A stretch of DNA of 62,299 bases from an uncultured Actinomycetes bacterium (lineage in GTDB: Bacteria > Actinomycetota > CADDZG01 > WHSQ01). A program made the translations under genes and the position numbers. Below the pieces are notes generated by a model. It did no database searches and had not been told where the DNA came from. It saw nothing but the letters and a program-made list of their open reading frames with translations. Positions 3,568 to 25,720 of this stretch are shown one piece after another (position 1 is the stretch's first letter; each line of letters starts with the position of its first letter). The stretch lies in assembly GCA_937863385.1 (NCBI GenBank), contig CALMBW010000003.1, positions 1 through 62,299 on the forward strand, written 5' to 3'.

Positions 3568-3568
3568 T

Positions 3569-5527
3569 TCACGATGCCCGATCGTCTTCGCCCAGTAAGT
3601 ATCGAAGGAGATCGCTTAGGTCATCACGATTGCCGTCGGAATCATCGAGTGGGTCAGCGGCAAGATTGAGTGGCGCCAAATCCGCGCCTTCAAGCAAGCG
3701 GCGCATCGTCGTTTCTTTTCGGAGTAGCGATTGATCCACAAGATGGTCGATCGTTTCATTGCCAGAGTTCACTGAACAGAAGATGTGAATCTTGACCTGA
3801 CGATCAAGGGGCATTCCCATGCGGTGGATGCGATCGATTGACTGGAGAAACAGTGCCGCGTCGTACGTTCGATCGAGATAGATCGCGGTGTGGCACGTTG
3901 AATGAAGAGATATGGACTCGGAGCATGATGCCGGGTTCGTAACTAGGAAGGCGGCTCCCTCTAGGTCGAGGAATCGGCGAATTATTTGTTCGCGTGTGTC
4001 ACTTTCACCAGGTTCCTCCTTCAGGGCTACCGGATCATCTCGCAGAGCATCGTCGCCTGCAGGCACGCGTCCATCGATCTGATAGACGGGCGCCGCTATC
4101 TTGGCACGCAAGAAGTGAGCGATGGCATCCAGGTTCGGAACAAAGTTGCTCCAGCAGACTGCCTTTTCTCCGCGGTTGGCTAGGTCGCTTACAAGGTCCA
4201 AGAGCATTCCGAATTTGGCTGGCACCTCTCGCTCCTGATAGGCGGCGAGTCGCTCCATGAGGGTCGCCGGTTCAGTTCGAAGGGCCGGTAGGCCGAAATA
4301 TGAATCAGTACGACTAAAGACCGAGGGGTTGGTAGCTGCCTGCAAGAGGCGGATTGGTCTCCCTCGACGAAGAGCGTCCAACTTGTCCCGCCAAGTGTCC
4401 GCATCCTCCAGCCGGCGGCGAAACCTTCCCTCAATCAGCTCGTAAATCTCTGCCTGGGTCCCCGTCATTTCGATTTCATGACGTTCGATTTCGTACGGCG
4501 GTAGCCCTAGGGCCTCCTTAGGTGTTCTCGAGATGAATGGATGGATTGTTCGAAGTACGCCATCAAGATCGTTGTCCACCCGGGCCGCGAACGCGTCACG
4601 AGTCCCGGTCACCTGACCATCGGGCCAAAGAACGTTGAACTGCGTAAAGAGATCACGACCCGACTGCGGCATAGGAGTGCCCGACAGAATGGTGCGAACA
4701 CGGGCGCGGCGCGAGAGTTCAAGGATCGCAGGTGCCCAGAGTCCACCACGAAACCGCTTTATTCGATGAGACTCGTCGACAACCAGCATCACTCGCCACG
4801 CGGAGAAGAGATCCAGCAACAGCCGTTGATCTGAAGCCGCCGTCGCATAGCTGATGAGAATGCAGTCCCCTCGTCGAGCACTCCGATAGAGGTCTGCCCT
4901 TCGCGACGCATCCCCCCGCACTCTTCGCACTCGGAGTCCCTCAGGAAGTGCCCGCGCCGACTCGCGCTCCCACGGATCGAAACAGGCGAGTGGACCGATA
5001 ACGATGACGACATCGATCGTTTCCGACGCGAGGTGTGCCGAAGCTGTGGCTAGGGTCGTCAAGGTCTTTCCAGAGCCAGGCACTGAGAAATTCGCCGCGT
5101 TGATTGCCGTAAGCGCGTGGGCAACCGCGGTCTTCTGATGAGGCGCTAGCTCGCGATCGTCCTTCCAGCCGTAGTTGTCCATCGACAAGGCCACGTCATC
5201 CCACTCGAACGCCGTAGCCCCATCCTTCAAAGCCGACGCCGCATCGCGAGTACGGGCAAAGCTCTTGCGCCGTTCTAACTCTGCCGAAACCTGCGATCGA
5301 ATTTGGTGGTCAGGATCGACTTCATAGCCGCGGGAGGTGAGCCAGTCATAGACGCGAAGCGCCAAGTATTGGACCGAGGACCGACGAGATGGGCATCGCC
5401 ACCCGCTTTCGGTCTGGGTCGCGCCAAGAATGCTCCTAAAGAACAGGCGGGGACGGCGCGTGAAGAGGGACTGTCCACCTTCGACGAGGACGTCCTCCGC
5501 ATCGATTCTTAGGGCAACGCGATCCAT
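3569..5527 (-). CDS. SNF2-like superfamily 2 helicase/translocase
   Basis: The product is 652 residues. Walker A reads SVPGSGKTL (about 148-156), with V-P in place of the usual A-D/M-G. Motif II is DESH (about 251-254), motif III is SGTPMPQ (about 282-288), and motif VI is QSIDRIHRMG (about 562-571). This set is typical of SNF2 ATPases, which translocate on double-stranded DNA. About 120 residues precede the ATPase core, and an acidic tail ends the protein. It is two bases downstream of the ParB-like gene and one base upstream of the DUF3883 gene. It probably drives target scanning or remodelling for the methyltransferase/nuclease pair; that role is inferred. Confidence 0.85.
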   Translation of the reverse strand: MDRVALRIDAEDVLVEGGQSLFTRRPRLFFRSILGATQTESGWRCPSRRSSVQYLALRVYDWLTSRGYEVDPDHQIRSQVSAELERRKSFARTRDAASALKDGATAFEWDDVALSMDNYGWKDDRELAPHQKTAVAHALTAINAANFSVPGSGKTLTTLATASAHLASETIDVVIVIGPLACFDPWERESARALPEGLRVRRVRGDASRRADLYRSARRGDCILISYATAASDQRLLLDLFSAWRVMLVVDESHRIKRFRGGLWAPAILELSRRARVRTILSGTPMPQSGRDLFTQFNVLWPDGQVTGTRDAFAARVDNDLDGVLRTIHPFISRTPKEALGLPPYEIERHEIEMTGTQAEIYELIEGRFRRRLEDADTWRDKLDALRRGRPIRLLQAATNPSVFSRTDSYFGLPALRTEPATLMERLAAYQEREVPAKFGMLLDLVSDLANRGEKAVCWSNFVPNLDAIAHFLRAKIAAPVYQIDGRVPAGDDALRDDPVALKEEPGESDTREQIIRRFLDLEGAAFLVTNPASCSESISLHSTCHTAIYLDRTYDAALFLQSIDRIHRMGMPLDRQVKIHIFCSVNSGNETIDHLVDQSLLRKETTMRRLLEGADLAPLNLAADPLDDSDGNRDDLSDLLRYLLGEDDRAS

Positions 5528-5529
5528 TG

Positions 5530-6858
5530 CTATGACGACTTGCGAACTTGCGAGTCGTACGTCTCAAACCAAGCGACAAGTTTGGCTACTTCATCAAGGA
5601 TTCCCTGGTCAACGTCGCCGCTTTGAAGTTTCTGAATCAGCCGCTCTCCAATCGCCTCAATGCGGTTGGATATTTCCTTCAAGATTCGAAGGAGGTCCTC
5701 CTGGCGAGATGACGTGAACCCATCGATCGCTACCTGAATTGCGGTGGCGATTTCATCCTTCGGATAGTTCGATACCTGAGGGCCTGGCAGGTCTTCATCA
5801 AAATCGTCATCGTCATCGTCGCTAGATTCTGGCGGAGTCTCGGTCGGCGATTCCAAGACCGGAGAGGTCGCTCCAAAATCATCCTCCGCTTGGGCGATTT
5901 CTTCGCTCAAGGAGTCGAATCGGACCCGGTCCTTCCTGAACATCTGTCGGATCTGTCGAATGTCCCCGTGCGGACGATTCGCCCGCACAGCAGCGAAGAG
6001 AACTTGCAACACTTGATCTGCGTCGTCCGCGTAATCGGTTTCAACTTGCATCATCATCCGGCCGATGTCACGGAACCGTTCAAGGGTGCGAAGGAGCCGG
6101 TGATATTGGCCGGGCTGCCCTTGGTCATCAAGGAAGATGTCCATGTACTTGATGGCGAAGAGGTCTCTGATCACCTCGCCCTTGGACTTCTCGACCATCG
6201 CTTGGAGTTGCCCTGCCACGTCGTCGATTGAATCTGACTCATGCCAATCGATGCCTCTTAGTTGGGCCGCCTCCCGTAGGGCAAGCAGGTAATCAATATC
6301 GTTGTAGCGGACCTTGAAGTTAGCGGTGAGCTGTTCACGCTGTTCCATCTCGAGCAGTGTTGCTTCGTCAATTTCATCCTCTTCGAGGATGATTGCCTCG
6401 ATCCACTGGTGGCCGGCATCTCCGCTCTCGCGTTGAAGTCGCTTCACCATCGCGAGGCGACGATTCCCATTCCGGACGGTGCCATCAGGGCGGATCCAAA
6501 TCGCGGTCTCTTGCTTTCGCACCAGCCAGTCGTTCTTCAGGGCGTCGAAGTCATCAGTGGGATTACCGACTATGCGGGCTCCATCTACTCGGTGCGAACT
6601 ATCGAGAAGAAGCGACTCAACCGACCGCTCATCGTCGGGGTTGTTCTCTGGATCGAGGTCGTGACCCAGCTGCTCCTCCGCCCACATTCGCTCAGCCCGA
6701 AAGCGCCTGTTATCGACGTTGAGGACGAGAGCATCCACTGGAACACTCCACACCTCGAAATCCATCCATTCATTCCTGACCCAGAGTCGCTCTGGGCCCC
6801 GATCCGCCGGTTGACGACGTTCAGCGATGAGTTGTTTACGTTCCTCGGCTGTCTTCAT
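5530..6858 (-). CDS. ParB/sulfiredoxin-like domain protein with acidic linker
   Basis: The product is 442 residues. The N-terminal part contains VPVDALVLNVDNRRFR (about 39-54) and GNRRLAMVKRL (about 131-141). This is the ParB N-terminal (Srx-like) fold, whose G-x-R-R box binds nucleotide in ParB-type proteins. A helical middle follows, then a run of Asp/Glu near residues 350-360 and a coiled-coil-like C-terminus. The start overlaps the end of the methyltransferase gene by 23 bp, and the stop is 2 bp before the helicase gene. ParB-like domains in defence loci can be nucleases or nucleotide-dependent clamps. Which applies here cannot be told from sequence. Confidence 0.7.
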   Translation of the reverse strand: MKTAEERKQLIAERRQPADRGPERLWVRNEWMDFEVWSVPVDALVLNVDNRRFRAERMWAEEQLGHDLDPENNPDDERSVESLLLDSSHRVDGARIVGNPTDDFDALKNDWLVRKQETAIWIRPDGTVRNGNRRLAMVKRLQRESGDAGHQWIEAIILEEDEIDEATLLEMEQREQLTANFKVRYNDIDYLLALREAAQLRGIDWHESDSIDDVAGQLQAMVEKSKGEVIRDLFAIKYMDIFLDDQGQPGQYHRLLRTLERFRDIGRMMMQVETDYADDADQVLQVLFAAVRANRPHGDIRQIRQMFRKDRVRFDSLSEEIAQAEDDFGATSPVLESPTETPPESSDDDDDDFDEDLPGPQVSNYPKDEIATAIQVAIDGFTSSRQEDLLRILKEISNRIEAIGERLIQKLQSGDVDQGILDEVAKLVAWFETYDSQVRKSS

Positions 6859-8791
6859 TTTCTGTCCCCCCAGTTGCGACGCCGAACCGCTCCTTGCAAA
6901 TTTCGATCGCGTATTGAAAGTTCAGTTGATCAGTCTTGCTCACCTTGAGTGGCGCAACTCGGGAGACCCACTCAGCAGCCGTCGCCTCCGTCCGCATCGG
7001 GATTACAGCCTCGACCGAACGGCACGTAATGGCAACGTCCCACTCGCAGTTGCCCGGGAAGGAATGATGTCCCATGTGGACGTCACTCAGTACTGGCCAC
7101 GCGGCCGTGACTCGCAGCTTGGCTTCGTCTAGAGCCTCACCAACGACATCCCAAGCTTGCTTCGAGCTCGCGTGATAGGTAAAAACCAGCGGCATCCCAT
7201 CTTGTGTCGCTTCCACGCAGCGACGAAAGGCCAGGGCCAAGCTCTCTTGAAACTGGTGGTCGTTGTCACCCTCTGGGAAGAGAGGTACGCCGCCTCGCCG
7301 GGATAGACCCATCATGACGCGCTGCAGATGTGACAGCTCGTCATAATCGATGAAGTCGAAGTACGGCGGGTCGAAAACGCAAAGCTGCGCCGAGTGAAGC
7401 CTTGCCTCAGGGATAGATCGAGTGGCTGATCTCAAGCCAAAGTCAATACCTTTTCGATTCTCCTCAAACCCGAACACATGTCTTTCGACACGTCTTCTCT
7501 TAGGGTTCCAAACATGCCGAAGAACGCGCGCTTCGCTAGCTTTCGCAACGCGCTGTAGACACGCAGGCAGCGTCCCGCGCCCTGCAGAAGGATGGAGCGG
7601 GTTTAGCTCCACTGACATTGAGGGCAGGGCATATCCGCGCACCGAAAAGAGCGGTGAGATTCGACCGTAGTCAGTCGCGTACCCACAGAGCCGATTGTTT
7701 GTGGTGACTGCATTGGAAACCGCTAGAGAAAGCGCGGCGCGTACCGGCTGATCCGTGTCAGCCTCGGCTATCCATTGCTTTGCCAGTGCGAAGAGCAGCA
7801 ACTGGCGGGGCGTAAATAACTGATCCAGATCGACGATTCCGAAACTTTGCGGGCGGCCATCCCTTGTGGTTCCGATCTTCCGAGACGACCAGCTGAACGC
7901 TTCTCGTTTCTCGCTCCAGTAGTTCCCTGCTCGACGGATCGCGTCATGATCATGCGCTTTGGGCGCTCGGACTTCCCTGTATGCGTCGTCAGCGGTTTCC
8001 TCCACCGCAATGAGGATGCTGGGAGCGCCTCCCGTCTTCAGGTCTTGATGCGAGGACCGGGAACCGCAGGAGGGGCATGAGTAACGGCCAGCCGTATAGG
8101 TCCCCTCCCAGATGGAGTGGTACTCCCCGCAGCAATGGAGGCGCTGGCGGTCAGGATCTGCCAAGCGATGGATGTCTCGGCATGTGGGACAGAACACGGT
8201 TAACCCTGCGTCGCGGACGACACTGCCTCTTGCCCCTGTGTATCGAGCAAGTGCCAGCGATCGATAGAGGAGATTTTCGTAATCGCACCCAGGGCACGTA
8301 ACCAGGCGAAGCGTGAAGTAATGAAGGGGCGTCTTCGACGGGGCCGGATAGTAACGACCCAGTTGGGATGAAAGGTGCTCAAGTAGTGCCGCACCGGCTA
8401 CCTCAACATCATTCCGGTTCGCTGGGTTCAGCTCGTATTTCGTGATCGCCACCGCCAGGGGGTCCACATCCCCTCCCCAGACTTTGGCGCCCAACCGCCT
8501 CGCTTCGACCAAAGTGGTCCCACCGCCCGCGAACGGATCTAGGACCTTGAGGTCGCTCAGGAGAGGGGTATCCGAGGCGAAGTCTTGCCAGAACTCATCT
8601 GAGCTCGCTCCGGCATCACTTGCCGCAGCAATGAGAAGCGCTCTCATGAGTCCGGGCGGGCGGCGGGCCCACCAGCGGTGGACTCGGTAGGCAGGATCGT
8701 TGATTCTTCGGTCGGCGCGGAGGACCAGCGAAACCTCCCGGAAGGGGAAGCTCGCTTCCAACAGCGTTGGCTTGTAAGGCTCCACTCTCAT
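6836..8791 (-). CDS. Adenine/cytosine-N-type DNA methyltransferase with zinc-ribbon insertion (DUF1156/COG1743-like)
   Basis: The product is 651 residues. The chosen ATG at 8791 has GGAG seven bases upstream; the frame stays open to 9325, but that extension has no ribosome-binding site and looks non-coding. The N-terminal W-W-A-R-R-P box (about 40-45) and DPFAGGGTTLVEARRLG (about 85-101) are the AdoMet-binding part of DUF1156-type methylases. DPPY is at about 474-477. Between them is an insert of over 300 residues with four Cys pairs (about 167/170, 201/204, 220/221, 239/242), likely zinc ribbons that could read DNA. It is the first gene of the four-gene operon. Modification of host DNA is the probable role. 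Confidence 0.8.
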   Translation of the reverse strand: MRVEPYKPTLLEASFPFREVSLVLRADRRINDPAYRVHRWWARRPPGLMRALLIAAASDAGASSDEFWQDFASDTPLLSDLKVLDPFAGGGTTLVEARRLGAKVWGGDVDPLAVAITKYELNPANRNDVEVAGAALLEHLSSQLGRYYPAPSKTPLHYFTLRLVTCPGCDYENLLYRSLALARYTGARGSVVRDAGLTVFCPTCRDIHRLADPDRQRLHCCGEYHSIWEGTYTAGRYSCPSCGSRSSHQDLKTGGAPSILIAVEETADDAYREVRAPKAHDHDAIRRAGNYWSEKREAFSWSSRKIGTTRDGRPQSFGIVDLDQLFTPRQLLLFALAKQWIAEADTDQPVRAALSLAVSNAVTTNNRLCGYATDYGRISPLFSVRGYALPSMSVELNPLHPSAGRGTLPACLQRVAKASEARVLRHVWNPKRRRVERHVFGFEENRKGIDFGLRSATRSIPEARLHSAQLCVFDPPYFDFIDYDELSHLQRVMMGLSRRGGVPLFPEGDNDHQFQESLALAFRRCVEATQDGMPLVFTYHASSKQAWDVVGEALDEAKLRVTAAWPVLSDVHMGHHSFPGNCEWDVAITCRSVEAVIPMRTEATAAEWVSRVAPLKVSKTDQLNFQYAIEICKERFGVATGGTENEDSRGT

Positions 8792-9234
8792 TGCTTGCTC
8801 CGCTGGTCTGACTTGGGCATCTTGAAGTCTAGGTGCGACACAACCACTTATCAGGTGATTCCACGGGACCGTGGTCCAGCGGTCCACCTGCTCCGTTCGG
8901 AGCATGATGAAGCACACAGTTGCACCGGTCCCGGTGCGTATACGCGAAGGACGATTCCCGAGGTCGCAAGCTCCTGTCTGTTCCGGCTCTGAATCCCGTA
9001 GAGATTCATACGCCTGCACCCTTGTGCTGGAGGACCGATATGCTTGCTTCGCTTGAAGACTCCCCGGAGGGCGGGTGCAAGTGTTTGTTACTCCAGCGCT
9101 CCGCGCAGGGAGATCGAAAACTGGGGGCGACGAAATGGCTCTAGCGAGAAAGATTGGAGCCAATTCTGACTCGCCAATTCTTCTCAAAGTTTTCTTCAAT
9201 TGAACAGGCCCGGCCCAACTGGTACTTCTCAGGT
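8792..9234. promoter_or_regulatory. Divergent control region with four inverted repeats
   Basis: This gap separates the methyltransferase operon (minus) from the excisionase/integrase genes (plus). Within about 90 bp it holds four palindromes: CCACGG-GA-CCGTGG (8861-8874), TGCTCCG-TT-CGGAGCA (8889-8904), GCACCGG-TC-CCGGTGC (8922-8937) and GCGTATACGC (8936-8945). They may be operators or small RNA hairpins in the operon leader. I see no convincing gene and cannot assign -10/-35 boxes. Confidence 0.5.
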
Positions 9235-9507
9235 ATGGCCCGGACCACAAAACCCCGAATATCTGATGGTCAGCTAGAGCTTCCTGACGCAGGTAGTGGC
9301 TACGGTGAGGAACCGAGCCAGGCACTCCTGCTCACGGTCAAGGAGGCGGCGAAACTCATGCGCATTGGACGAGACATGGCCTACGCCCTGGTGGCCGAGG
9401 GCCGCATCCCCTCCATCCGGCTCGGCCGCCACATCAGGATCCCCCGAGCCAGCCTGATCGCGCACCTCCAGGCGAAAGCCGAGAAACTCCACGGGGAGGC
9501 GTCGTGA
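9235..9507 (+). CDS. Excisionase-like helix-turn-helix protein
   Basis: The product is 90 residues from ATG 9235; an earlier in-frame ATG at 9154 has no supporting sequence. The core LLTVKEAAKLMRIGRDMAYA followed by VAEGRIPSIRLGRHIRIPRA is the MerR-like winged helix of Xis/HTH_17 proteins: a recognition helix, then a wing with R-L-G-R-x-I-R-I-P. Its end overlaps the integrase start by 4 bp, as usual for xis-int pairs. It probably bends attachment-site DNA and directs excision, and may regulate the operon upstream. Confidence 0.85.
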   Translation: MARTTKPRISDGQLELPDAGSGYGEEPSQALLLTVKEAAKLMRIGRDMAYALVAEGRIPSIRLGRHIRIPRASLIAHLQAKAEKLHGEAS

Positions 9508-10657
9508 GCAGGCGCGGCCACGTCTACAAGCGGGGAGACGCCTGGACCTACGTCCTCGATATCTCGCTCCCGGGTCAGCGGCGGCGCCAGAAGTCCAAGG
9601 GCGGCTACCGGACGAAGCGGGATGCTCTCGCCGCACTCAACGAGGCGCAGGGTGCCCTCCAGCGGGGTCTGTACGTGGAGCCGTCGAAGCTGTCGGTCAA
9701 GACGTTCTTAGTCGACCACTGGCTCCCGGCGATCGCCTCAAGCCTGCGAGAGAGCACGCTGCGGGGTTATCGCTCCGCGATCAGGATCTATGTGATCCCC
9801 CGGCTCGGTGAGACACGCCTACAAGCGCTGACCCCCGACCAGCTGAACGCGTTCTACGGCGAGCGCCTGCGGGAGGGTCGGCGGGATGGCAAGAGCGGGC
9901 TGAGTCCCAAGACGGTCCACAACGTCCACGTGATGCTCCACAAGGCGCTTCACGACGCCGTTCGCTGGGGACACCTCCCCCGGAACGTGGCCGAGTTCTC
10001 TGACCCTCCCAAGCAGACCTCGTCAGGTAAAGCCATGCGGACCTGGACACCCGAGGAGCTCCGGAGCCTTTTCGAGCACGTGACGGTTGATCCCTACTAC
10101 GCAGCTTTCGTGCTTGCGGCTAGCACCGGCATGCGACGAGGAGAGGTTCTCGGCGTCCGGTGGCAAGACATCGATCTCGACCGTCGGCGACTTTCGATCG
10201 CCAGACGATCATCTCGATCGACTACCGGGTGGAGATCGGCGAACCCAAGACCGCCCGTGGTCGCCGGAGCGTTGCCCTCGATAGCGGGACCGTGACCGCT
10301 CTGCGGGCCCATCGCGCGGCCCAGAATCAGCAGAAGCTGAGCCTCGGTGAGGCATACCAGGACCAGGGCCTGGTCTTCTGCCGGGAAGACGGCACACCTG
10401 TCCACCCCGATCGCTTCACGCAGATGTTCGACAAGCACGTCAAGGCCAGCGGACTTCCTCGCATCCGGCTCCACGACCTGAGACACACACACGCCACGCT
10501 CGCCCTCGCCGCCGGGATCCACCCGAAGGTCATGAGCGAACGCCTCGGTCACTCGACGGTCGCGTTCACCATGGACGTCTATAGCCACGCGATCCCTTCG
10601 ATGGAAGCCGAAGCCGCCGAAACGATCGCCAGCCTCGTAAGGGGCTCAGGACCATGA
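9504..10657 (+). pseudogene. Tyrosine integrase of element 2, frameshifted
   Basis: The frame from GTG 9504 is clearly a phage-type tyrosine recombinase: an arm-binding N-terminus, a core-binding domain and the first catalytic Arg (TGMRRGE). It leaves the family pattern near 10199. The family sequence resumes one frame over (RQTIISIDYR) and runs through HDLRHT, LGHST and the Tyr of VYSHA to TGA at 10657. Compared with the intact integrase at 22163-23329 (LAIRQT), the change fits loss of one C in an ATC-CGC-CAG context. As read, the product lacks the HxxR, His and Tyr residues and cannot recombine. A sequencing error is possible. Confidence 0.85.
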
Positions 10658-10866
10658 TGGCGAAGCGCAAGCGTTACACCCAGAAGCAGCTGATCAAGAC
10701 GCTCAAAGAGCATGGATGGGAGCAATCGATCGGCGGCAAGCGCCAGGTGAAGATGGTCTGGGAGGGCCATCGACCCGTGACCATCCCCGAATTCAAGGGC
10801 GAGACCCTGCCAGTTGGCCTCTCGCAGGCGATCCTCAAGCAGGCCGGAATCGAGGACGACAGCTAG
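10654..10866 (+). CDS. HicA-like mRNA interferase toxin, active-site His not conserved
   Basis: The product is 70 residues. An ATG-ATG pair (10654/10657) overlaps the integrase stop. The order lysine-rich start, L-I-K-T-L-K-E-H-G-W-E, then V-T-I-P-E-F-K-G-E-T-L-P-V-G-L-S-Q-A-I-L-K-Q-A-G-I is the HicA double-stranded RNA-binding-like fold. The usual G-S-H-x-x-(F/Y) active-site segment reads G-G-K-R-Q-V-K-M here, so the catalytic His appears to be missing. HicB follows one base downstream. It is either an inactive toxin or a variant that uses other residues. Confidence 0.75.
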   Translation: MMAKRKRYTQKQLIKTLKEHGWEQSIGGKRQVKMVWEGHRPVTIPEFKGETLPVGLSQAILKQAGIEDDS

Positions 10867-10867
10867 A

Positions 10868-11116
10868 ATGAAGATGATGGAACTCGAAGTGATCGTTCAC
10901 CACGACTCTGAGACCAAAGGCTTCTGGGCCGAAGTCGTCCAGCTACCTGGTTGCTTCGCGGCCGGGCACACCCGCGAGGAGCTCGAGGAGTCGCTGAAGG
11001 AAGCGATTTCCCTCTATCTGCAGGACGAGGACCCCTCTGAGATTCTTTCGACTGACCACGTGGAAGCCGTGGAGCGCTACCGCTTCTCTGAGGCCGAAGG
11101 CCTAGTGCCGGCCTAA
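10868..11116 (+). CDS. HicB-like antitoxin
   Basis: The product is 82 residues from ATG 10868, one base after the HicA stop. EVIVHHDSETKGFWAEVVQL followed by PGCFAAGHTREEL is the HicB partial RNase H fold (x-A-x-V-x-x-L-P-G-C-x-A-x-G-x-T-x-E-E). The acidic tail is typical of HicB antitoxins that mask basic HicA. There is no clear C-terminal DNA-binding domain, so autoregulation would need another factor. The hicA-hicB order is the usual one. Confidence 0.8.
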   Translation: MKMMELEVIVHHDSETKGFWAEVVQLPGCFAAGHTREELEESLKEAISLYLQDEDPSEILSTDHVEAVERYRFSEAEGLVPA

Positions 11117-12139: not shown

Positions 12140-12904
12140 GTGGCTGATCGCCTCGCAGTTCAAATCGTTTCCAAATACAAGAACGGGCCTTCGGTCCCGG
12201 CACGGGCTTTCAGAGTGCTGCTCGCTGAAGAGATCCGTTGTTTTCGAACATCGACGGACGATCACGGCGTCTGGTGGGATAGCGGCGGCTGGCTGAAGGC
12301 AGGCGGATGGTCTCGACAGGACCGAACAAACATACAGACGCTAGCAACGTGGCTAGCGTCCAGACACGTGGCCTCCCCCGATTCCGCTTGGCGTCTCATC
12401 TCGAGAGCGGACGTTTTCGCCCGGGCGACTACAGCACACGACGACATGTTCCTACTTGCGGTCCTGGCTTGGGGATACGGGGCGACCAATGATCGTTTCG
12501 GAAACGGACCGATGGCTGCCAAAGACGCTCGCAACAAGGGTGTATCGAACATCGTCCGCTCCCTCCAGGCAGCCGCGGTTGAGGGCCCAGAGGCGACGTT
12601 CCGCGCATGGTCAGGGATCGCCAAAGTTGCTCGGCTTGGCCCTTCGTACGCCAGTAAGCTCGCCCACTTCGCTTGCTACAACCGGAGGTCTGGAAGCGGG
12701 CCGCTCATCGCCGACACAAACACCGCGTGGGCATATTGGCTATTCACGCGTGAAGAGGGAAGCGCCGCCGGGCCTGTCCCCTACTCTCGCTACGTGACAT
12801 GGTGTGAGGAGCAGGCCAGGGTGATGGGACATCGATCGGACGACATCGAGAGAGCGATGTTCGGACTAGGTCAGGACATTCGTCAGATTTACAACCACCT
12901 GTAG
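12140..12904 (+). CDS. OGG-fold (8-oxoguanine glycosylase-like) protein
   Basis: The product is 254 residues from GTG 12140, 11 bp after the GIY-YIG-like gene. The part around residues 165-195 (LGPSYASKLAHFACYN and then PLIADTNTAW) matches the helix-hairpin-helix and following Asp segment of the bacterial OGG-fold protein family. That family resembles 8-oxoguanine DNA glycosylases and is often found in mobile or defence loci. In this reading a conserved Lys in the P-S-Y-x-x-K segment and the Asp of IAD would be the catalytic pair. Base-excision attack on invading DNA is a reasonable idea, and the family assignment is moderate. Confidence 0.55.
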   Translation: MADRLAVQIVSKYKNGPSVPARAFRVLLAEEIRCFRTSTDDHGVWWDSGGWLKAGGWSRQDRTNIQTLATWLASRHVASPDSAWRLISRADVFARATTAHDDMFLLAVLAWGYGATNDRFGNGPMAAKDARNKGVSNIVRSLQAAAVEGPEATFRAWSGIAKVARLGPSYASKLAHFACYNRRSGSGPLIADTNTAWAYWLFTREEGSAAGPVPYSRYVTWCEEQARVMGHRSDDIERAMFGLGQDIRQIYNHL

Positions 12905-13055: not shown

Positions 13056-13066
13056 CTTTGTTTCTT

Positions 13067-13113
13067 TGGTTGCAGGGGCAGGATTTGAACCTGCGACCTC
13101 CGGGTTATGAGCC
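13067..13113 (-). repeat. att copy 2: 3' half of tRNA-fMet
   Basis: These 47 bp run from the anticodon arm to CCA, the same extent as copy 1 and the 3' half of the intact tRNA. The T-stem is GCAGG/CCTGC, paired differently from the resident gene but fully complementary. The acceptor strand CCCTGCA equals the resident gene. It marks the junction of elements 2 and 3. Confidence 0.9.
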
Positions 13114-13270: not shown

Positions 13271-14074
13271 TTAGCTAGAGGCTTCGAGGGTTGGTGGCTC
13301 CTCCACATCGTCGTTATCGATTGCCTTATTGGGTTCCCTCAGTGAAGCTTTTTCGGCCGTGAGCCAACCTTGAACCCCGGCGTCGACTTCGTCGATCTCT
13401 TCGCTTGAAAGCACTCGGGCGCCGCCCTCATCAACGACGGCGAGTTGAACGGGAGGGCCGACAAGGGATGAGGAAACCCTGCACGTAGTCTCGATAGCTC
13501 GATAGGCAACCCACAAGCCCAACTTGACCGGCAAGTCGTCACCTTCAACGTAGTGGGCCATCAATCCATTGGTCACGTCAGCGAATGGTCCGCCACTTCC
13601 TACGGCGCAAAACTTAGCCGCCGTGTGCCAGTTGAGTTGACCATCACCCGCAATCTCCAGAGCGTATGGGGTCCCTGATGAATAACCGAGAACGAGAAAG
13701 TCGCTATGCCAAGGGTGCTGTGTCCCCCCGAAGGGCGTGGGGATCGCGTTCACTCCGGGCATTGCACTCCCATAGGCCCTCTTCATAGCGTCGCAAACGA
13801 ACGACTGGAGATTTTGTCTGATGACTGGCAGATCAGGCTTTGCGAATGCCGCCTTTGTTATGGGTTGCGAGGCCGCAGTGACCTCCAAATCCTTGAGCGC
13901 CTGGTCAACCTCTTCGATGATGTAGACGGACCCTGCTGCCGTCCACACAGCATTCAGTTCGGGACATGCCCGAACCTTTTGAGCAGGGTGCGCCGTATTC
14001 GAGATTGTCGAGGCCATGCTGTCCGACGCGACGACGACGCCATCGCTACAGACAAGGCCAATGGCGACAGTCAT
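13271..14074 (-). CDS. Proteasome-beta/HslV-like Ntn hydrolase
   Basis: The product is 267 residues. The second residue is Thr in MTVAIGLVCSDGVVVASDSM, the hallmark N-terminus of proteasome-type peptidases, where removal of Met exposes the Thr nucleophile. Further along, AVGSGGPFADV (about 157-167) fits the G-S-G segment of the family, and the Asp in VVASDS fits the catalytic Asp. The chain is longer than HslV, with an acidic tail. It follows the YwgA-like gene by 9 bp, so the two are probably one transcript. There is no ATPase partner (HslU, ARC/Mpa) in the window. Proteolytic activity is likely; a conflict role is inferred. Confidence 0.75.
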   Translation of the reverse strand: MTVAIGLVCSDGVVVASDSMASTISNTAHPAQKVRACPELNAVWTAAGSVYIIEEVDQALKDLEVTAASQPITKAAFAKPDLPVIRQNLQSFVCDAMKRAYGSAMPGVNAIPTPFGGTQHPWHSDFLVLGYSSGTPYALEIAGDGQLNWHTAAKFCAVGSGGPFADVTNGLMAHYVEGDDLPVKLGLWVAYRAIETTCRVSSSLVGPPVQLAVVDEGGARVLSSEEIDEVDAGVQGWLTAEKASLREPNKAIDNDDVEEPPTLEASS

Positions 14075-14083
14075 GTAGGAGAC

Positions 14084-14533
14084 TCAGCTCTGGAACCGCG
14101 AGTTCACCGCGTAATCGGGAAAGCGTCCGTAGACCTCCCGAAGCAGCTGACTGAACGAGCGGGACGTCACGTAGGCTCGGACCTTCGACACGAACTCGAC
14201 GTGTTTGGAATCCATCTCCTCAAGAAGTTTGGCGACTCGCGCGTCCCCCTCGTAAGTGGTTCGATAACGCGGATACCGACGCCCGGGGACCGACTCAATC
14301 TCCAGGAGGTTGTCGTTGACCAGTTGGGCAATCTCTCTGGTCAATTCGCGGGAGAAGGGGCCCCAGTCCCAGGGCTCAAAATCGAATAGATTACGCCAAC
14401 GCTCGTCCCCCGCCATCTGGAGGATGAAGACGCCCTTCTGCAGGCGTAGACGGTCAAGAGCTTCTGGCTCTTGCGCTGGAGCAAGCTCGTCAGCAGCAAG
14501 CAGAAGCGGTAGGTCCGCTCGGTTCACAAACAC
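14084..14533 (-). CDS. YwgA/SocA (Panacea/DUF4065)-like protein
   Basis: The product is 149 residues. LDRLRLQKGVFILQM, then F-E-P-W-D-W-G-P-F-S-R-E-L, a short helix, and the ending L-L-R-E-V-Y-G-R-F-P-D-Y-A-V-N-S-R follow the phage-associated YwgA/DUF4065 pattern (LQK-(L/G)-x-(Y/F), a G-P-(F/Y)-S box and a VY-x-x-(Y/F)-P-x-(Y/F) C-terminus). Panacea-domain proteins act as antitoxins for many unrelated toxins. Its direct upstream position to the Ntn hydrolase gene suggests it controls or delivers substrates to that protease. The family call is fair; the pairing role is inference. Confidence 0.6.
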   Translation of the reverse strand: MFVNRADLPLLLAADELAPAQEPEALDRLRLQKGVFILQMAGDERWRNLFDFEPWDWGPFSRELTREIAQLVNDNLLEIESVPGRRYPRYRTTYEGDARVAKLLEEMDSKHVEFVSKVRAYVTSRSFSQLLREVYGRFPDYAVNSRFQS

Positions 14534-18297: not shown

Positions 18298-19731
18298 TCA
18301 CCAATCCCATCCGTCATCACCTGCTAAGCCGAGCGAAGCGGGAACGATCTCGTTCTGTTCTATGAGCCAGGAATCCGCTTTGGGAACCACAATCGGAGTA
18401 ACTGCTTGCACCTGCGGGGGTGCCGAAGAAAGAGCCTGCACGCACAAAGCGACGGCGACAGCGCGGTCATCGTGCTGATCGGGGTCATGGTCCATCCGCA
18501 ATACGCCCGGCGACGTCTCCCGAAGCCGAACGTTCGCCAGCTCGTCGAGAAGTTCTTTGTCGTCTGGAAGAGCTAGTGCCTGATTCCTCAGCGCGAGATG
18601 AAGGCCGCTCGCAAGTCGGCCGACACTTCCGCTGCTGAAAGTGAACTCTTCAACACGCACACCTCGATCCCGTAGTCGTTGAGCAAGCCCGATGGCCTGC
18701 CAAGGATCGAGGACGATCCGCGCTCCGTTGAACTGCCGGTGCGCCTGAAGCAGCCATCTTTCGACAGCTTCAACCTTGACCGGGTTCGTACGCGTGCCCT
18801 GCCACACCTCGATGCGATCAAGGATCACCTTCCGCTGCCCAGGCTTGCGCTGATCATGTTCGGCATGGGCGACAACGGCAACGGTTCGATCTCTCTTCAG
18901 GCCAAGGTCAAGGGAAATGACGTAGCGCACACCCCTCTCCGGATCAAGAGGACCATCGAGAACCACGCAGGCGCGAAGGTCATCAAGCGAGGTCAACCGA
19001 TCCTCTGACGCCGTCCACTCGTTCAGGAATAGTCGCTGGAATGAACTCTCAGGAAGTCGACGGCGTTGCTCTTCGAGACGCTCCTTACTCATCCAAGGGG
19101 CAGGGCCCCACAGCTCGTTTACTCGCCACATCGGGTCGGCCTTAGCGTGCTCCAAGACCTTGTACGACCAATGAGCTGGCTCACCCGCCGATGTCAGCAA
19201 GACCAACCGGCAACCAGGCACTTTGGCAACTGCGGATGTGATTGCCTCGAAGACGACCTTCGGTTGTGACGTCGAAGGCCAGTTCGCCACCTCATCGATG
19301 ACAACAAAGTCCGGTCTCAGGCCCCACGAACCTGACGCGTCCGCAGCGAGTATCTCCAATGTCGATCCAGTTTCCAGATCCGTGGCCTTGAATGCCCCAA
19401 TCACAAACCGTCCTTCGAGTGAAGGCGTCCGCTCAGCGAAGCCCCTAAAGGCATCTAGCAGGAGCCGCCCCTGGTCTCGATCAGCGGCGACCGCATAACA
19501 GCGAGAGCCCGGTCGAAGCTGAGCCACAATCGCGACTTGGACGATGGCAGCAAGGTCACTTGTCTTTGACCGGCCTCGGGCTCGCGTGAGGAAGTGATAG
19601 GGGGTTGCGCTCTCGGTATCGAGGACCGCACCAAAATCGACCCACTGTGCTGCCTCAGCCATCTGTCCTAAGCGACAGTCGTCTGGCATCACGAAACTCG
19701 CGAGCAGGTCGAGAGCGTCGGTGGTCTTCAT
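18298..19731 (-). CDS. Phage terminase large subunit
   Basis: The product is 477 residues. The N-terminal ATPase has RARGRSKTSDLA (a Walker A variant with S-K-T, about 50-61) and FVVIDEVANW (Walker B with catalytic Glu, about 141-150), then LVLLTSAG as the coupling motif. The C-terminal nuclease has SLDLGLKRDRT (about 272-282) and DHDPDQHDDRAVAVAL (about 430-445), the acidic residues of the RNase H-like fold. Length is in the usual range. It is downstream of the P27-like small subunit. It would package DNA into heads, which for this element must come from a helper phage. Confidence 0.85.
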   Translation of the reverse strand: MKTTDALDLLASFVMPDDCRLGQMAEAAQWVDFGAVLDTESATPYHFLTRARGRSKTSDLAAIVQVAIVAQLRPGSRCYAVAADRDQGRLLLDAFRGFAERTPSLEGRFVIGAFKATDLETGSTLEILAADASGSWGLRPDFVVIDEVANWPSTSQPKVVFEAITSAVAKVPGCRLVLLTSAGEPAHWSYKVLEHAKADPMWRVNELWGPAPWMSKERLEEQRRRLPESSFQRLFLNEWTASEDRLTSLDDLRACVVLDGPLDPERGVRYVISLDLGLKRDRTVAVVAHAEHDQRKPGQRKVILDRIEVWQGTRTNPVKVEAVERWLLQAHRQFNGARIVLDPWQAIGLAQRLRDRGVRVEEFTFSSGSVGRLASGLHLALRNQALALPDDKELLDELANVRLRETSPGVLRMDHDPDQHDDRAVAVALCVQALSSAPPQVQAVTPIVVPKADSWLIEQNEIVPASLGLAGDDGWDW

Positions 19732-19955
19732 TCCTCCTCACCAACAAATCGAAAATAGGAGGTGAGCCCGATGTAATCAAAGCGCTCGTAAACAACGCTC
19801 TTTAGCTCGAATGGCAACACTTGCTGGTCACGCCCTACGGTTGCGCCATCCAAGTGCTCCAGTACCAAACGGTGTGGAGGCTCAATGGATTCCAGCCACT
19901 CCGCCCCAACACACGGTCCGTCTACTAGAAGGATGTTGTAAGGGGTGCTACTCAT
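19728..19955 (-). CDS. Small hypothetical protein between terminase subunits
   Basis: The product is 75 residues. It overlaps the small terminase gene by 8 bp and the large terminase gene by 4 bp, so it is embedded in the packaging operon. The sequence reads like a compact alpha/beta domain (YNILLVDGPCVG, then a C-terminal YFRFVGEEE). There are no known motifs. Size and location suggest a packaging accessory. Confidence 0.5.
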   Translation of the reverse strand: MSSTPYNILLVDGPCVGAEWLESIEPPHRLVLEHLDGATVGRDQQVLPFELKSVVYERFDYIGLTSYFRFVGEEE

Positions 19956-20424
19956 CAGCTTCCAACTCCGATCGGGCTTCAGCAGCGAGCCGCAACCGCC
20001 GTCCCTCAGCCATCTCCCTGGACATCAAGCCCCGGTCCCTTGCCGCAGCTCCGAGATCGCGCTGGAGTCGCGCTGATGAGGACGGGTCAAGTCCCAGACG
20101 AGCGCGAGCCTCAGCCGCCAATCTTTCGAGCTTGACTGCAAAGTCCGCAGCAGGTCGTTGCGCGCCGGTCTCGGGATCGAGGAGTCCGTGCTCGTCCAAC
20201 CACTCTGAAACGAGAGCACAGCGAGCCTCGGCGCGACCCCATGCAGTCAAAGCTGGGCCGAACTCAGGGACATCGAGCCAGGGGATGCGCTCCACAGCGG
20301 CAGCGACGATCTGAGCTGCTAGGGGCGCGATAGAGCGCTCGGAATTGGCCCCGTGCCGGAGCGCTGCGGTGTTGCGCTTCTCAAAAGGGGGCCAAGAGTA
20401 GTTACGGGCTGGGGATCTGGACAC
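19948..20424 (-). CDS. Phage terminase small subunit (P27-like)
   Basis: The product is 158 residues from GTG 20424. An HGANSERSIAPLAAQIV start, where H-G-A-x-S is the typical opening of actinobacterial P27-type small subunits, is followed by helices rich in Ala, Arg and Glu and an A-R-A-R-L-G-L-D-P-S-S-x-A-R-L ending segment, also characteristic of P27 proteins. It would recognise the packaging site and recruit the large subunit. In satellites a private small terminase diverts helper packaging to the element genome. Confidence 0.75.
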   Translation of the reverse strand: MSRSPARNYSWPPFEKRNTAALRHGANSERSIAPLAAQIVAAAVERIPWLDVPEFGPALTAWGRAEARCALVSEWLDEHGLLDPETGAQRPAADFAVKLERLAAEARARLGLDPSSSARLQRDLGAAARDRGLMSREMAEGRRLRLAAEARSELEADE

Positions 20425-21530: not shown

Positions 21531-22166
21531 ATGACGCCGACGAAGAGGGTCAGTCCCTTCGATCAAGACCTGTACTTCGCCATCCGCGTGGTGGGTGGTC
21601 GAACGGGCCGTCCTCGCCTACTGGGAACCGAGCGACCAAAGGCTTCCGTTCCTCGGAGCATCATCATTAGAACGAAGATCGTCCTGATTGAAGGGCGTCC
21701 AGAACTCGTTGAGCTTGAAATCGGATCGAACTTCTCGTTCGGCGCTTCATCGAGTCCGATCGCCATTACCTCAGACGTGCTGAGAGGGATTCGAGTTGCT
21801 GAACTGATGCAGACAGCACTCCGCCGAAACGCTCAGGAACTCCGTCAACTCAGTCAGGAGCACCCAAACGTTGCGGCTCTTTCGCGCCGTTTAGCCCGGG
21901 CTGAGGAGATCGCCGCGAGGGGTCGGAGGGGCGTAAAGGACAAGGGGCTTCACCACTACCAAGAAGTTGCCAAGGTCTATAACGCCGCGGTCATCTCAAG
22001 ACAACCGCCAACTAAGGCGGTCCAGGAACACTGGAAAGAGGACTACGAAACAGCTAAACGCTGGGTCAACACGGCTCGCCACAAGTATGGGCTACTCCCC
22101 CTCACGCAGGCAGGCAAGGCGCGAGGGGCACAGGGACTAGATGTGGGAAAGGAGAGCGAGAGATGA
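21531..22166 (+). CDS. Hypothetical protein preceding the integrase
   Basis: The product is 211 residues. The N-terminal half is beta-rich (FAIRVVGGRTGRPRLLG; IVLIEGRPELVELEIG). The C-terminal half is helical and basic (K-E-D-Y-E-T-A-K-R-W-V-N-T-A-R-H-K-Y-G-L-L-P), resembling a small DNA-binding tail. The stop overlaps the integrase start by 4 bp, so the two are co-expressed. Proteins of similar build sit beside integrases in actinobacterial mobile elements. No family name is certain. Confidence 0.6.
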   Translation: MTPTKRVSPFDQDLYFAIRVVGGRTGRPRLLGTERPKASVPRSIIIRTKIVLIEGRPELVELEIGSNFSFGASSSPIAITSDVLRGIRVAELMQTALRRNAQELRQLSQEHPNVAALSRRLARAEEIAARGRRGVKDKGLHHYQEVAKVYNAAVISRQPPTKAVQEHWKEDYETAKRWVNTARHKYGLLPLTQAGKARGAQGLDVGKESER

Positions 22167-23329
22167 AGACCAGCAATTTCGCATCAACCAAGTACACGGG
22201 TGTTTATCGTCGGGGCGCAACCTTTAGTTTCCGGATCTCAGGGGTTCCCCGACGAGGTGGCACCAAGGGCGACCTCTGGAAGGGTGGGTTCCGCACGGCC
22301 GGGGAGGCTCGGGACGCTCGCAATGAGACCCTTACCGCCCTCAAACACAAGACCTATGTAGGACCGTCCAAGATGACGGTGGCTGAGTTCCTGATCGAGA
22401 AATGGCTTCCAGGATTGAGCGTTCGACCCTCGACCCGGTCCAGCTATGAGCAGATCGTGGAGAAACAACTTGTACCTCGCATTGGCAATCACAAGCTGGA
22501 AGAACTCGACGCCGCAGACCTGAATCGTCTCTACGCCGAACTCTTGACCAATGGTCGCAAGGACGGTGCAGGTCTCTCGTTGAAATCCGTTCGCAACACT
22601 CACGTTGTTATCCGAAAAGCATTGAGTGATGCCTTGCGCTGGGGCCTCCTCTCGCGCAATGTTGCAACCCTCTCTGACCCGCCTAAGCACGCGTTACATG
22701 GATCAAAAGAGCTGAAGACATGGGATCGAACCCAGCTGAACGCTTTTCTAGAAGGCGTCAAAGACGATCGCCTTTGCGCCGCCTATCGTCTGGCAGCAAT
22801 GACCGGGATGCGTCGCGGAGAAGTCCTTGGTCTTCGCTGGAAAGACCTAGACCTAGAGAATAGAAGGCTGGCGATTCGTCAAACACTTATCTCCATCGAC
22901 TACAGAATTGAGTTCAGCAGTCCAAAAACCAAGAGATCGTGCCGATCCGTTGCTCTCGACGAGGCAACCGCCTCCACCCTCAGGTCCCACAAGAGCCAGC
23001 AAGCTAGAGAACGCCTCCGGCTCGGACCGGCCTATGAGGCAAGTGACCTCGTCTTCACCCGAGAAGACGGCACGCCCCTGCATCCCGACCTGTTTTCTGA
23101 TAGCTTCGAGAAGCACGCATCCAGACTGGGCTTGGATCGAATACGCCTGCACGATCTGCGGCACACGTTCGCAACTCTTGGCCTCCAGGCTGGTTTGCAT
23201 CCAAAGGTCGTTAGCGAAACTCTTGGTCACGCGAGCGTTGCTTTCACGATGGACGTCTACAGTCATGCAATCCCTTCGATGCAGGAGGAAGCAGCAGAAG
23301 TGTTTGCCGCACTGATTGAAGGTTCTTGA
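22163..23329 (+). CDS. int: Tyrosine integrase of element 3 (intact)
   Basis: The product is 388 residues. An N-terminal arm-binding domain (about 10-65) is followed by a core-binding domain (about 70-170) and a catalytic domain. Catalytic residues visible are the Arg in TGMRRGE (about 217), a Lys in the beta-hairpin (about 255), HDLRHT (His about 330, Arg about 333), LGH (His about 356) and the nucleophile Tyr in VYSHA (about 366). It would integrate element 3 at the anticodon arm of tRNA-fMet. The three integrases of this window share the same C-terminal motif, so they form one family with one target. Confidence 0.95.
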   Translation: MKTSNFASTKYTGVYRRGATFSFRISGVPRRGGTKGDLWKGGFRTAGEARDARNETLTALKHKTYVGPSKMTVAEFLIEKWLPGLSVRPSTRSSYEQIVEKQLVPRIGNHKLEELDAADLNRLYAELLTNGRKDGAGLSLKSVRNTHVVIRKALSDALRWGLLSRNVATLSDPPKHALHGSKELKTWDRTQLNAFLEGVKDDRLCAAYRLAAMTGMRRGEVLGLRWKDLDLENRRLAIRQTLISIDYRIEFSSPKTKRSCRSVALDEATASTLRSHKSQQARERLRLGPAYEASDLVFTREDGTPLHPDLFSDSFEKHASRLGLDRIRLHDLRHTFATLGLQAGLHPKVVSETLGHASVAFTMDVYSHAIPSMQEEAAEVFAALIEGS

Positions 23330-23531: not shown

Positions 23532-25442
23532 TCAAGATTCAGGCAAATCAGCGACGAATTTCTCGCCCTGCCTTGGCGAAACTATTCCCTGAAGAAAACG
23601 CGTCAGCTGATGGGAGCTATCAGCGCGTCCAGCGCGCGCTTGCAGGCCGGACCTCTTCGCGGCATAAGTGACGTACAGGTGACTCCGAGCACGCGTTAAG
23701 GAAACATAGAGAAGGCGACGCTCATCACCTTCTTCAACCTCGCCCTCAGCGTTGCCCGGGATCAATTGATCTTCGCAATTGGGAACGATTACAGCCGTAG
23801 CAGTCAAGCCTTTGGCGGCGTGCATAGACATGAAGCGAACAGCATCTTCCTCACCCTGCCGCATGACTTCATCGATGTAGTCACGGACAGCCTGAAGACC
23901 GCTGAAGACCTGCTGGAGCGATTTAGGGTCCTCTCCCGCCAGGAGAAGCAAGACCTCGAAATACTCCGCTACATCGTCTCGCTCCAAGACGAGCTGAAGC
24001 AGCTGAGTCAAGGCAGCTGGCATCTCTTCTTCAAGCAGGGGTTCACCCTTCTCCAGGATTTCCTCGATTGCTTCGAGGTCTGCGGCGAGGCGGCTTCGGT
24101 TCGCTGCTTGAAGAACCCCTGGGTTGGCTCGGACCGTTTGGAGGGCTGCAGCGAATGTGCCACCCTGCTCCCGTGCAAGGTCGTAAACAGCCCTAAGCGT
24201 CGCACCCCCGACTCCGTTCTTTCGAAGCTCAAGCAGTTCTCTCCAGGCGAGACTGTCCTCACGGTTTACAAGGAGCCGCAGGGCGCAGACGACCTGTCGG
24301 CCGTCCGATTCTTCCAGGATCGCGAAAGGGTTCGAAATTCGCAGTCCGCGTATCCCCAGGTCGTCCAGAGCCTCGATGATGGGTTGGGAAAAGCCGTTCG
24401 CACGATCCATCCGCTGGAGGACAAGAACCTCGTTCGCAGGAACCCCTTCGACGTTGACGAGGTAATGGATCAATGCGGCGACCCCTTCGGCTTCGCTACT
24501 TCCATTGCGAAACGCCAGTACCTCTGCAACGCCATCAGGGGCGTCCTCTCGCGGGCGGAGAGCTTTTGGAACGGACCTGACATCCTGTTCAGCCACAGCG
24601 CGTGCCACAGCAAGAATGTCCTTAGCGCAGCGGTGACAGACCTCCAACTCTTCTTCGGCCGCTCCCGGGTAGGTTTCGGAGAACTCTCTGATTCCTTGCG
24701 GGAACGCGTGGCGGAAGGAGTAGATGCTTTGATCATCGTCTCCAGCAACGAAGAGGTCAGCACCTCTTGCTTCTAACGCTTGAACTACTGCCAACTCACA
24801 TTTGTTCAGGTCTTGATACTCATCGACAATGACGTACCTGAATTCTCGCTCGATCTCGAACTCGGGCCTTTCCTGTAACGCTCTCTTTACGCGATAGACC
24901 AACTCTGACCGGAGTGTGTAGCCGTAGACGGTTCGGTGCTCACGAAAAGCGGCCAGGAAAGCAGGATCAGGATGATTGGACTCCCAATCCTCCGTCTCAA
25001 CGTTGAGTGTTTCCCAGTCACTCGCTAGGTTCTGAAAGCTCTTCTGAACTTGGCGGACCGATCGTCTGAGAATGGTCTTGAGATCTTCGTCAACGACATA
25101 ACGCTCGTCAAAGTCATCCGCAATGAAAATGGGCGTCGGAAGTTCCGGAGCCCCACCATTCTTCAGAAGTTGTCGGAGAGCGAAGGCATGAATGGTTGAG
25201 ACCATCGGAACCGGCACGCTCAATTCATCGAGTCTCTCCCGCAATTCCCGAGCGGCTGCTCGTCCAAACGTGAGAACAAGAATGTCCTCGGCGTCGACAG
25301 ACAACTCTTCGATCAGAAAGGCGATTCGATTGGTGATCGTTCTGGTCTTGCCGGTACCGGGCCCTGAAAGTAGACGCGTGTGCGGCCCCGGCGCTGACGC
25401 AGCGCTCTCTTGCTCTGGTGAGAGACCGTCCTGCCAAGCCAA
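23532..25442 (-). CDS. UvrD/Rep-type superfamily 1 helicase
   Basis: The product is 636 residues. TTG 25442 has GGGAGG five bases upstream, so the weak start is supported. Motif I is GPGTGKT (about 27-33), Ia includes LTFGRAAARELR, II is VDEYQD, III is GDDDQSIYSFR, V is FMSMHAAKGLT and VI is RRLLYVSLTRAR, so the ATPase is complete. It is shorter than PcrA/UvrD and lacks a nuclease domain and the UvrD C-terminal tail. It is the only gene between the integrase end and the tRNA-side terminus on this strand. Helicases of this type occur in defence pairs such as Gabija, but no OLD-family nuclease gene is present. Confidence 0.85.
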   Translation of the reverse strand: MAWQDGLSPEQESAASAPGPHTRLLSGPGTGKTRTITNRIAFLIEELSVDAEDILVLTFGRAAARELRERLDELSVPVPMVSTIHAFALRQLLKNGGAPELPTPIFIADDFDERYVVDEDLKTILRRSVRQVQKSFQNLASDWETLNVETEDWESNHPDPAFLAAFREHRTVYGYTLRSELVYRVKRALQERPEFEIEREFRYVIVDEYQDLNKCELAVVQALEARGADLFVAGDDDQSIYSFRHAFPQGIREFSETYPGAAEEELEVCHRCAKDILAVARAVAEQDVRSVPKALRPREDAPDGVAEVLAFRNGSSEAEGVAALIHYLVNVEGVPANEVLVLQRMDRANGFSQPIIEALDDLGIRGLRISNPFAILEESDGRQVVCALRLLVNREDSLAWRELLELRKNGVGGATLRAVYDLAREQGGTFAAALQTVRANPGVLQAANRSRLAADLEAIEEILEKGEPLLEEEMPAALTQLLQLVLERDDVAEYFEVLLLLAGEDPKSLQQVFSGLQAVRDYIDEVMRQGEEDAVRFMSMHAAKGLTATAVIVPNCEDQLIPGNAEGEVEEGDERRLLYVSLTRARSHLYVTYAAKRSGLQARAGRADSSHQLTRFLQGIVSPRQGEKFVADLPES

Positions 25443-25596: not shown

Positions 25597-25640
25597 AGAG
25601 AGGCCCCGAACATGTGTTCAGAGCCTCTGACCTGCTGTTT
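25597..25640. terminator. Hairpin terminator at the 3' side of tRNA-fMet
   Basis: AGAGGC...GCCTCT forms an outer stem, and GAACATGTGTTC inside it is itself self-complementary. A T-run follows on the plus strand near 25638. It occupies the same place as the hairpins at 2410 and 13030, just past the tRNA 3' end, and probably ends both the tRNA transcript and element transcription. Confidence 0.6.
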
Positions 25641-25643
25641 TTG

Positions 25644-25720
25644 TGGTTGCAGGGGTGGGATTTGAACCCACGACCTCCGGGTTATGAGCCCGGCGAGCTA
25701 CCAGACTGCTCCACCCTGCG
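25644..25720 (-). tRNA. Initiator tRNA-fMet (anticodon CAT), integration target
   Basis: The gene is 77 nt including the encoded CCA. It begins with CGCAGGG, and the acceptor 3' strand is CCCTGCA, so position 1 is C facing A72, the unpaired 1-72 pair that marks initiator tRNA. The anticodon stem GCCGGG/CCCGG-type carries the CAT loop and the G-C run before it typical of fMet. The T-stem is GTGGG/CCCAC. The 3' 47 bp (25644-25690) are the att core also found at 2435 and 13067. The 3' half seen now was probably supplied by element 3. Confidence 0.95.

Follow-up and report, generated by a model that had tools for sequence, protein, structure and literature searches.

A proteasome-fold threonine peptidase and its YwgA-like neighbor: a recurrent two-gene unit that may act as a phage-carried toxin-antitoxin module

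Proteasome homologs have been catalogued by Fuchs, Alva, and Lupas (2021), who listed 22 proteasome-like families, some of them, such as AAH and PMI-4, phage-borne, and reported that no genomic context or co-occurrence hinted at their function (PMC8665760). AAH is most abundant in Actinobacteria, with no Actinobacteria-specific phage carrying it having been found, and the entries for PMI-4 come from phages and Euryarchaeota (PMC8665760). The second set of described systems relevant here comprises antitoxins. The C-terminal domain of DarG occludes the active site of DarT (PMC11481870). Panacea antitoxins bind their toxins directly and require a GPV motif for neutralization, unlike the Panacea protein SocA, which is a proteolytic adaptor (PMC8832971). 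No protease toxin is mentioned in the main texts of two Panacea papers.

The locus described here joins a member of the first set with a relative of the second. It lies on the minus strand of a 62,299-nucleotide stretch of DNA from an uncultured Actinomycetes bacterium, the whole of which is referred to below as the window, and consists of two genes at positions 13271 to 14533, with the YwgA-like gene first in the operon and the peptidase gene after it:

14084-14533, minus strand: YwgA-like partner, similar to the DarG C-terminal domain, 149 aa, GTG start
14075-14083, minus strand: intergenic gap of 9 bp
13271-14074, minus strand: proteasome-beta-like Ntn (Thr) peptidase, 267 aa, ATG start

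These positions and the 9-bp spacing are those given in the initial annotation, which had also described the peptidase as lacking an unfoldase partner; in agreement with that, neither an unfoldase nor an HslU gene appeared when selected ORFs from this region of the window were scanned with Pfam. On another contig, the host has two further PF00227 proteasome-family genes, so the window peptidase is an extra one. This 20S-like gene pair of the host, together with the genes around the locus, points to Actinomycetota as the host phylum.

The window peptidase scores 22.0 bits (E 1.4e-4) against the Proteasome domain (Pfam ID PF00227), just under the gathering cut-off of 22.4, and all 16 of the relatives compared match this domain, with a best E value of 1.8e-11. 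Its best PDB match is the beta subunit of Methanocaldococcus jannaschii (E 2.3e-6 in phmmer, improving to 1e-13 with a profile). An AlphaFold2 model, obtained from a 15-row alignment of natural relatives (pLDDT 80, pTM 0.80), retrieves in Foldseek exclusively 20S proteasome beta chains as top matches, with an E value of 2e-10 and TM scores of up to 0.81 when normalized to the target. The predicted structure thus has the proteasome-type alpha-beta-beta-alpha arrangement, and the earlier proposal of an Ntn fold, which a different fold would have contradicted, is borne out. So is the intact N-terminal Thr: the catalytic Thr2 directly follows the initiator Met1, and is accompanied by Asp18, Lys33, Gly48, and the triad Gly159-Ser160-Gly161, so that the nucleophile Thr and the equivalents of Asp17, Lys33, and Gly47 are all present, as they are, almost without exception, in 70 to 72 relatives. 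Since the sequence starts exactly with Met-Thr, the nucleophile would be exposed by methionine removal alone, without a propeptide. The tail is acidic and contains proline.

HslV, the 20S proteasome beta subunit, Anbu, and BPH share this fold and these catalytic residues; the window peptidase differs from them in having no HslU or alpha subunit beside it, in its different operon, and in scoring far below the NCBIfam cut-offs (28.6 versus 224 bits for arc_protsome_B). It belongs to the broad set of proteasome homologs of Fuchs et al. (PMC8665760). With AAH and PMI-4 it has in common the proteasome fold, the Thr1/Asp17/Lys33/Gly47 residues, the lack of a propeptide, and a partly phage-borne occurrence, and a comparison with these two families by distribution, the one criterion used, finds them compatible. 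In contrast to those families, for which no informative gene context was reported, the peptidase described here has a fixed partner gene. PADLOC returned for the proteases nothing beyond a spurious match to DrmC (E 0.003), and their inclusion in a known defense model was rejected.

By sequence, the partner does belong to a group of antitoxin-related domains that includes the DarG C-terminal domain, SocA/Panacea, and PDC-M19A, and its nearest profile neighbors are defense-related domains. In PADLOC, the window protein matches PDC-M19A with an E value of 7e-12; further matches of the partner are to a type I specificity subunit at its C-terminus (7e-10) and to DarG at residues approximately 165 to 274, the DarT-blocking domain (6.8e-7 for a Legionella member and 2.6e-5 for the window protein). 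Its best PDB profile match is also DarG (chain 7yk3_B, E 0.013), aligned through a shared YGP motif, and the similarity to DarG is statistically modest. The pair differs from DarTG in that it has neither the N-terminal ADP-ribosylglycohydrolase macrodomain of DarG nor DarT, the effector here being a peptidase. The partner had initially been described as Panacea-like; the antitoxin-related grouping stands, whereas the closer affinity is to the DarG C-terminal domain rather than to the Pfam Panacea model. The window protein has no Pfam match, and among five members of the partner family tested against Panacea (Pfam ID PF13274) a single one gave a match, sub-threshold at E 0.011, so that none reached the gathering score. 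Likeness to the Panacea systems (PanAT/SocAB) lies in the small antitoxin-like gene, partner swapping, mobile contexts, and possibly a conserved Gly-Pro. The Gly-Pro is invariant in all 73 partners (Gly58-Pro59 in the window protein, within WDWGPF; family consensus YDYGPFD) and is followed by Phe, not Val; it may correspond to the GPV motif of Panacea. The structural model of the partner is highly confident (pLDDT 95.8) and has a winged-helix core; Foldseek found no solved structure matching it at E <= 0.001, and its weak Foldseek and profile neighbors are the MarR, PadR, and RosR regulators.

The initial annotation proposed a neighborhood search for the pair, and the linkage proves to recur widely. 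In scans seeded with YwgA, 57 of the 63 informative loci from about 85,000 genomes had the peptidase adjoining, as did 11 of the 16 viral contigs that were informative. Peptidase-seeded scans returned 8 distinct viral contigs, every one of them paired and already known as such. Of the 57 linked genome loci, three are convergent and the other 54 tandem; their hosts belong to Pseudomonadota, Chloroflexota, Nitrospirota, Acidobacteriota, Planctomycetota, and Bacteroidota and also include a patescibacterium and an archaeon of the Methanomicrobiales. In the convergent pairs, all of them alphaproteobacterial (L098:5962-7226, L100:5836-7211, and L110:5980-7208), the stop regions overlap by 4 bp; in these the linkage persists without an operon. 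Among 396 genomes of the window's phylum, 15 others encode a peptidase relative (E <= 0.001), four with a YwgA-like gene directly upstream and 11 solo; an independent search of the same sample with the YwgA-like protein yielded five matches below 1e-50, each of them paired. When the neighbors of 79 loci were clustered, any other family was found in at most three loci, and no recurrent third gene, such as an unfoldase, accompanied the peptidase. The two-way seeding and this control led us to reject chance adjacency, and the pair is an autonomous two-gene unit. It is also rare and sporadic: of 388 sampled genomes of Pseudomonadota, just two had the module at 1e-12, one of them being the centre genome.

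Pattern scans based on the window peptidase alone, run on viral and genome contigs, found nothing, as its sequence is too divergent; the relatives were reached by whole-genome search and then by YwgA alignments, the combined 16-row YwgA alignment having no stretch conserved enough for a scan. Searches by tblastn with three peptidases against annotated phages and with two against plasmids gave no match. In crude gene calls (108 proteins), the genes adjoining the pairs encode terminase large subunits, a portal protein, integrases, IS1595 transposases, type I and type IIG restriction-modification systems, and many ordinary metabolic proteins, a mix that a mobile, self-sufficient cargo module would show. 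An IS1595-type transposase lies directly beside the pair at L105:2115-3107, and three such neighbors were seen.

Across the 73 pairs examined, the Met-Thr start is present in all 70 complete peptidases, Asp18 in 70 of 70, Lys33 in 71 of 72, and Gly48 in 72 of 72. A 4-bp overlap is the most frequent arrangement (32 of 67 tandem pairs), the gap otherwise being -1 to +25; with two small, adjacent, mostly co-directional, and coupled genes in a mobile setting, the pair has the gene layout of type II toxin-antitoxin systems. The peptidase and its YwgA-like partner diverge in step, with a Mantel correlation between their distance matrices of 0.73 versus a maximum of 0.23 in 2000 shuffles. In the peptidase tree, the window protein groups, on a long branch, with other members of its phylum (97*), and the solo peptidases form one side of a branch with a support of 93. 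These 11 solo copies (L017 to L027), a clade of chromosomally encoded proteasome-like peptidases from the window's phylum that have no YwgA gene beside them, led us to discard the notion that all relatives are paired. The clade is possibly the AAH family of Fuchs et al.

The YwgA family is not confined to peptidase partners. The members of one subfamily are extended at the C-terminus and have no peptidase next to them; what follows them, across a minimal gap or none, is a small conserved protein with two membrane segments predicted by eye and a DUF2335-like appearance, in the following four loci:

L104, 5989-7143: extended YwgA and two-TM protein
L106, 5971-7229: extended YwgA and two-TM protein
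L116, 5956-7193: extended YwgA and two-TM protein
L126, 5953-7193: extended YwgA and two-TM protein

This pair is a second, parallel module in which the effector has been swapped. No other observation hints as strongly that the YwgA protein serves as a restraint or sensor for different effectors. More distant YwgA-like proteins were seen just upstream of, or one gene from, large ORFs at L056:780-2835 and L068:1378-3447; these ORFs look alike by eye and perhaps represent another type of partner, possibly of a beta-protein family.

In the window, the pair sits at one end of a 12.6-kb element bounded by direct repeats derived from tRNA-Met:

13059-13113, no strand assigned: direct repeat, 3' half of tRNA-Met, putative att site at the peptidase-gene end
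18298-19731, minus strand: terminase-large-subunit-like ATPase, 477 aa, assigned by eye (PF03354 E 0.0011, below cut-off)
19948-20424, minus strand: TerS-sized ORF upstream of the terminase ATPase, 158 aa, assigned by position, no Pfam match
22163-23329, plus strand: tyrosine integrase of the element, 388 aa (PF00589 E 2e-24)
23532-25442, minus strand: UvrD-family helicase between the integrase and the att site, GajB-like PADLOC score
25636-25720, minus strand: other repeat copy (25636-25690) at the opposite end, within an intact tRNA-Met (25644-25720)

The UvrD-family helicase is a probable second cargo gene. No capsid or portal gene was recognized in the element, which, integrase matches excepted, is absent from 40 related genomes. 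The repeats, integrase, terminase-like ATPase, and TerS-sized ORF, together with the lack of capsid and portal genes, make the phage satellite setting proposed at the outset plausible, the label "satellite" being fair but unproven.

The tRNA-Met 3' half occurs in the window in three tandem copies, the third at 2435-2481, which, with the second integrase, indicates a series of at least two integrated elements; to their left, a third is suggested by an integrase-like match at 185-259. The neighboring tandem element carries, at 2617-9325, several defense-like genes and a 442-aa ORF of no known kind:

2617-3567: TmtA/PDC-S36-like ORF
3569-5527: SNF2 helicase with ZorD/DpdE-like scores
6836-9325: DUF1156-type methyltransferase

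Its integrase (9504-10657) consists of two overlapping ORFs in different frames, representing a frameshift or a pseudogene, and is 72% identical at the DNA level to part of the second integrase. Small overlapping ORFs elsewhere in the window read, by eye, like HicA (10654-10866) and HicB (10814-11116). Beside the att site, positions 12140-12904 encode a cargo protein of the OGG-like 8-oxoguanine glycosylase family (PF21790 E 2e-23).

We consider the pair to be, with a probability of roughly 45%, a self-contained two-gene module of the toxin-antitoxin or abortive-infection type, in which the YwgA-like protein restrains the Thr peptidase. A single mRNA would encode both proteins, the stop codon of the first gene usually overlapping the start codon of the second, and methionine aminopeptidase would expose the peptidase Thr with no need for propeptide removal. 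In the resting cell, the YwgA-like protein would most likely bind the peptidase and block its active site or its assembly or entry, on the model of the DarG C-terminal domain blocking DarT. Loss or alteration of the partner, for example upon infection by another phage, would free the peptidase, which would then degrade host or phage proteins, halting either the infection or the cell itself. The pair would travel as cargo in phages, satellites, and chromosomal islands. The gene pair itself, the fold, the catalytic residues, the two-way linkage, the co-divergence, and the effector swap are what the analysis shows; the binding of the two proteins, the restraint, its trigger, the toxicity, and the defense role are what we infer in this scheme. 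An antitoxin-related partner whose family swaps effectors fits the role of restraint or sensor. Several findings weigh against it. The 11 solo chromosomal peptidases of the same phylum indicate that this class of enzymes is not intrinsically lethal, the three alphaproteobacterial pairs are convergent, not operonic, and the resemblance of the partner to DarG is modest in statistical terms. Moreover, ring-forming peptidases that lack an unfoldase usually degrade only unfolded proteins.

Alternatively, the YwgA-like protein could stand in for the missing unfoldase as an adaptor that brings particular substrates to the peptidase or unlocks them, such that one host or phage factor is destroyed during infection or lysogeny. 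The delivery of SocB to ClpXP by SocA provides a precedent for such an adaptor (PMC8832971), the lack of an unfoldase as a recurrent third gene agrees with it, and co-divergence fits a physical complex; however, the pairing of the YwgA family with a non-protease membrane protein is a better fit to restraint or sensing than to delivery, and the DarG C-terminal domain is an inhibitor, which leaves delivery rather unlikely. Co-divergence also bears on whether the YwgA-like protein is simply a winged-helix transcriptional regulator of the operon, with the peptidase as the sole working part. While the confidently modeled winged-helix core and the weak MarR, PadR, and RosR neighbors would suit a regulator, there is no significant structural match, the strongest profile matches are to DarG and defense-system domains, and both the tight co-divergence and the retention of the pair in convergent arrangement favor contact between the two proteins, making a purely regulatory role very improbable. 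The peptidase, finally, could serve the phage life cycle or counter-defense, by virion maturation or by degradation of host defenses or repressors, with the YwgA-like protein as its cofactor. The pair does occur in bona fide phage contigs next to terminase and portal genes. Yet the phage at L041 has what looks by eye like a prohead protease ORF of its own, the pair also has unrelated chromosomal genes as neighbors, and no capsid genes were recognized in the window element; we regard such a role as improbable, too, if less so than the regulatory one.

Restraint of the peptidase by its partner remains our preferred reading. A little more tentatively, the recurrent pairs could be viewed as a widespread phage-carried toxin-antitoxin or abortive-infection family, built on a proteasome-fold Thr peptidase gated by a YwgA/DarG-type protein. 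We found no openly licensed PMC text that connects a peptidase of this kind to YwgA; to the extent that this could be checked, the pair is new and is made from known kinds of parts. If the proposed reading is true, this would be the first fixed partner, and hence the first functional handle, for an orphan family of proteasome homologs, and with a dedicated, co-evolving partner of antitoxin-related type, the function of one such family becomes directly testable. A promiscuous superfamily of antitoxins and sensors would also gain proteolysis by a proteasome relative among its effectors, and phages and satellites would be shown to use a proteasome-type enzyme as cargo.
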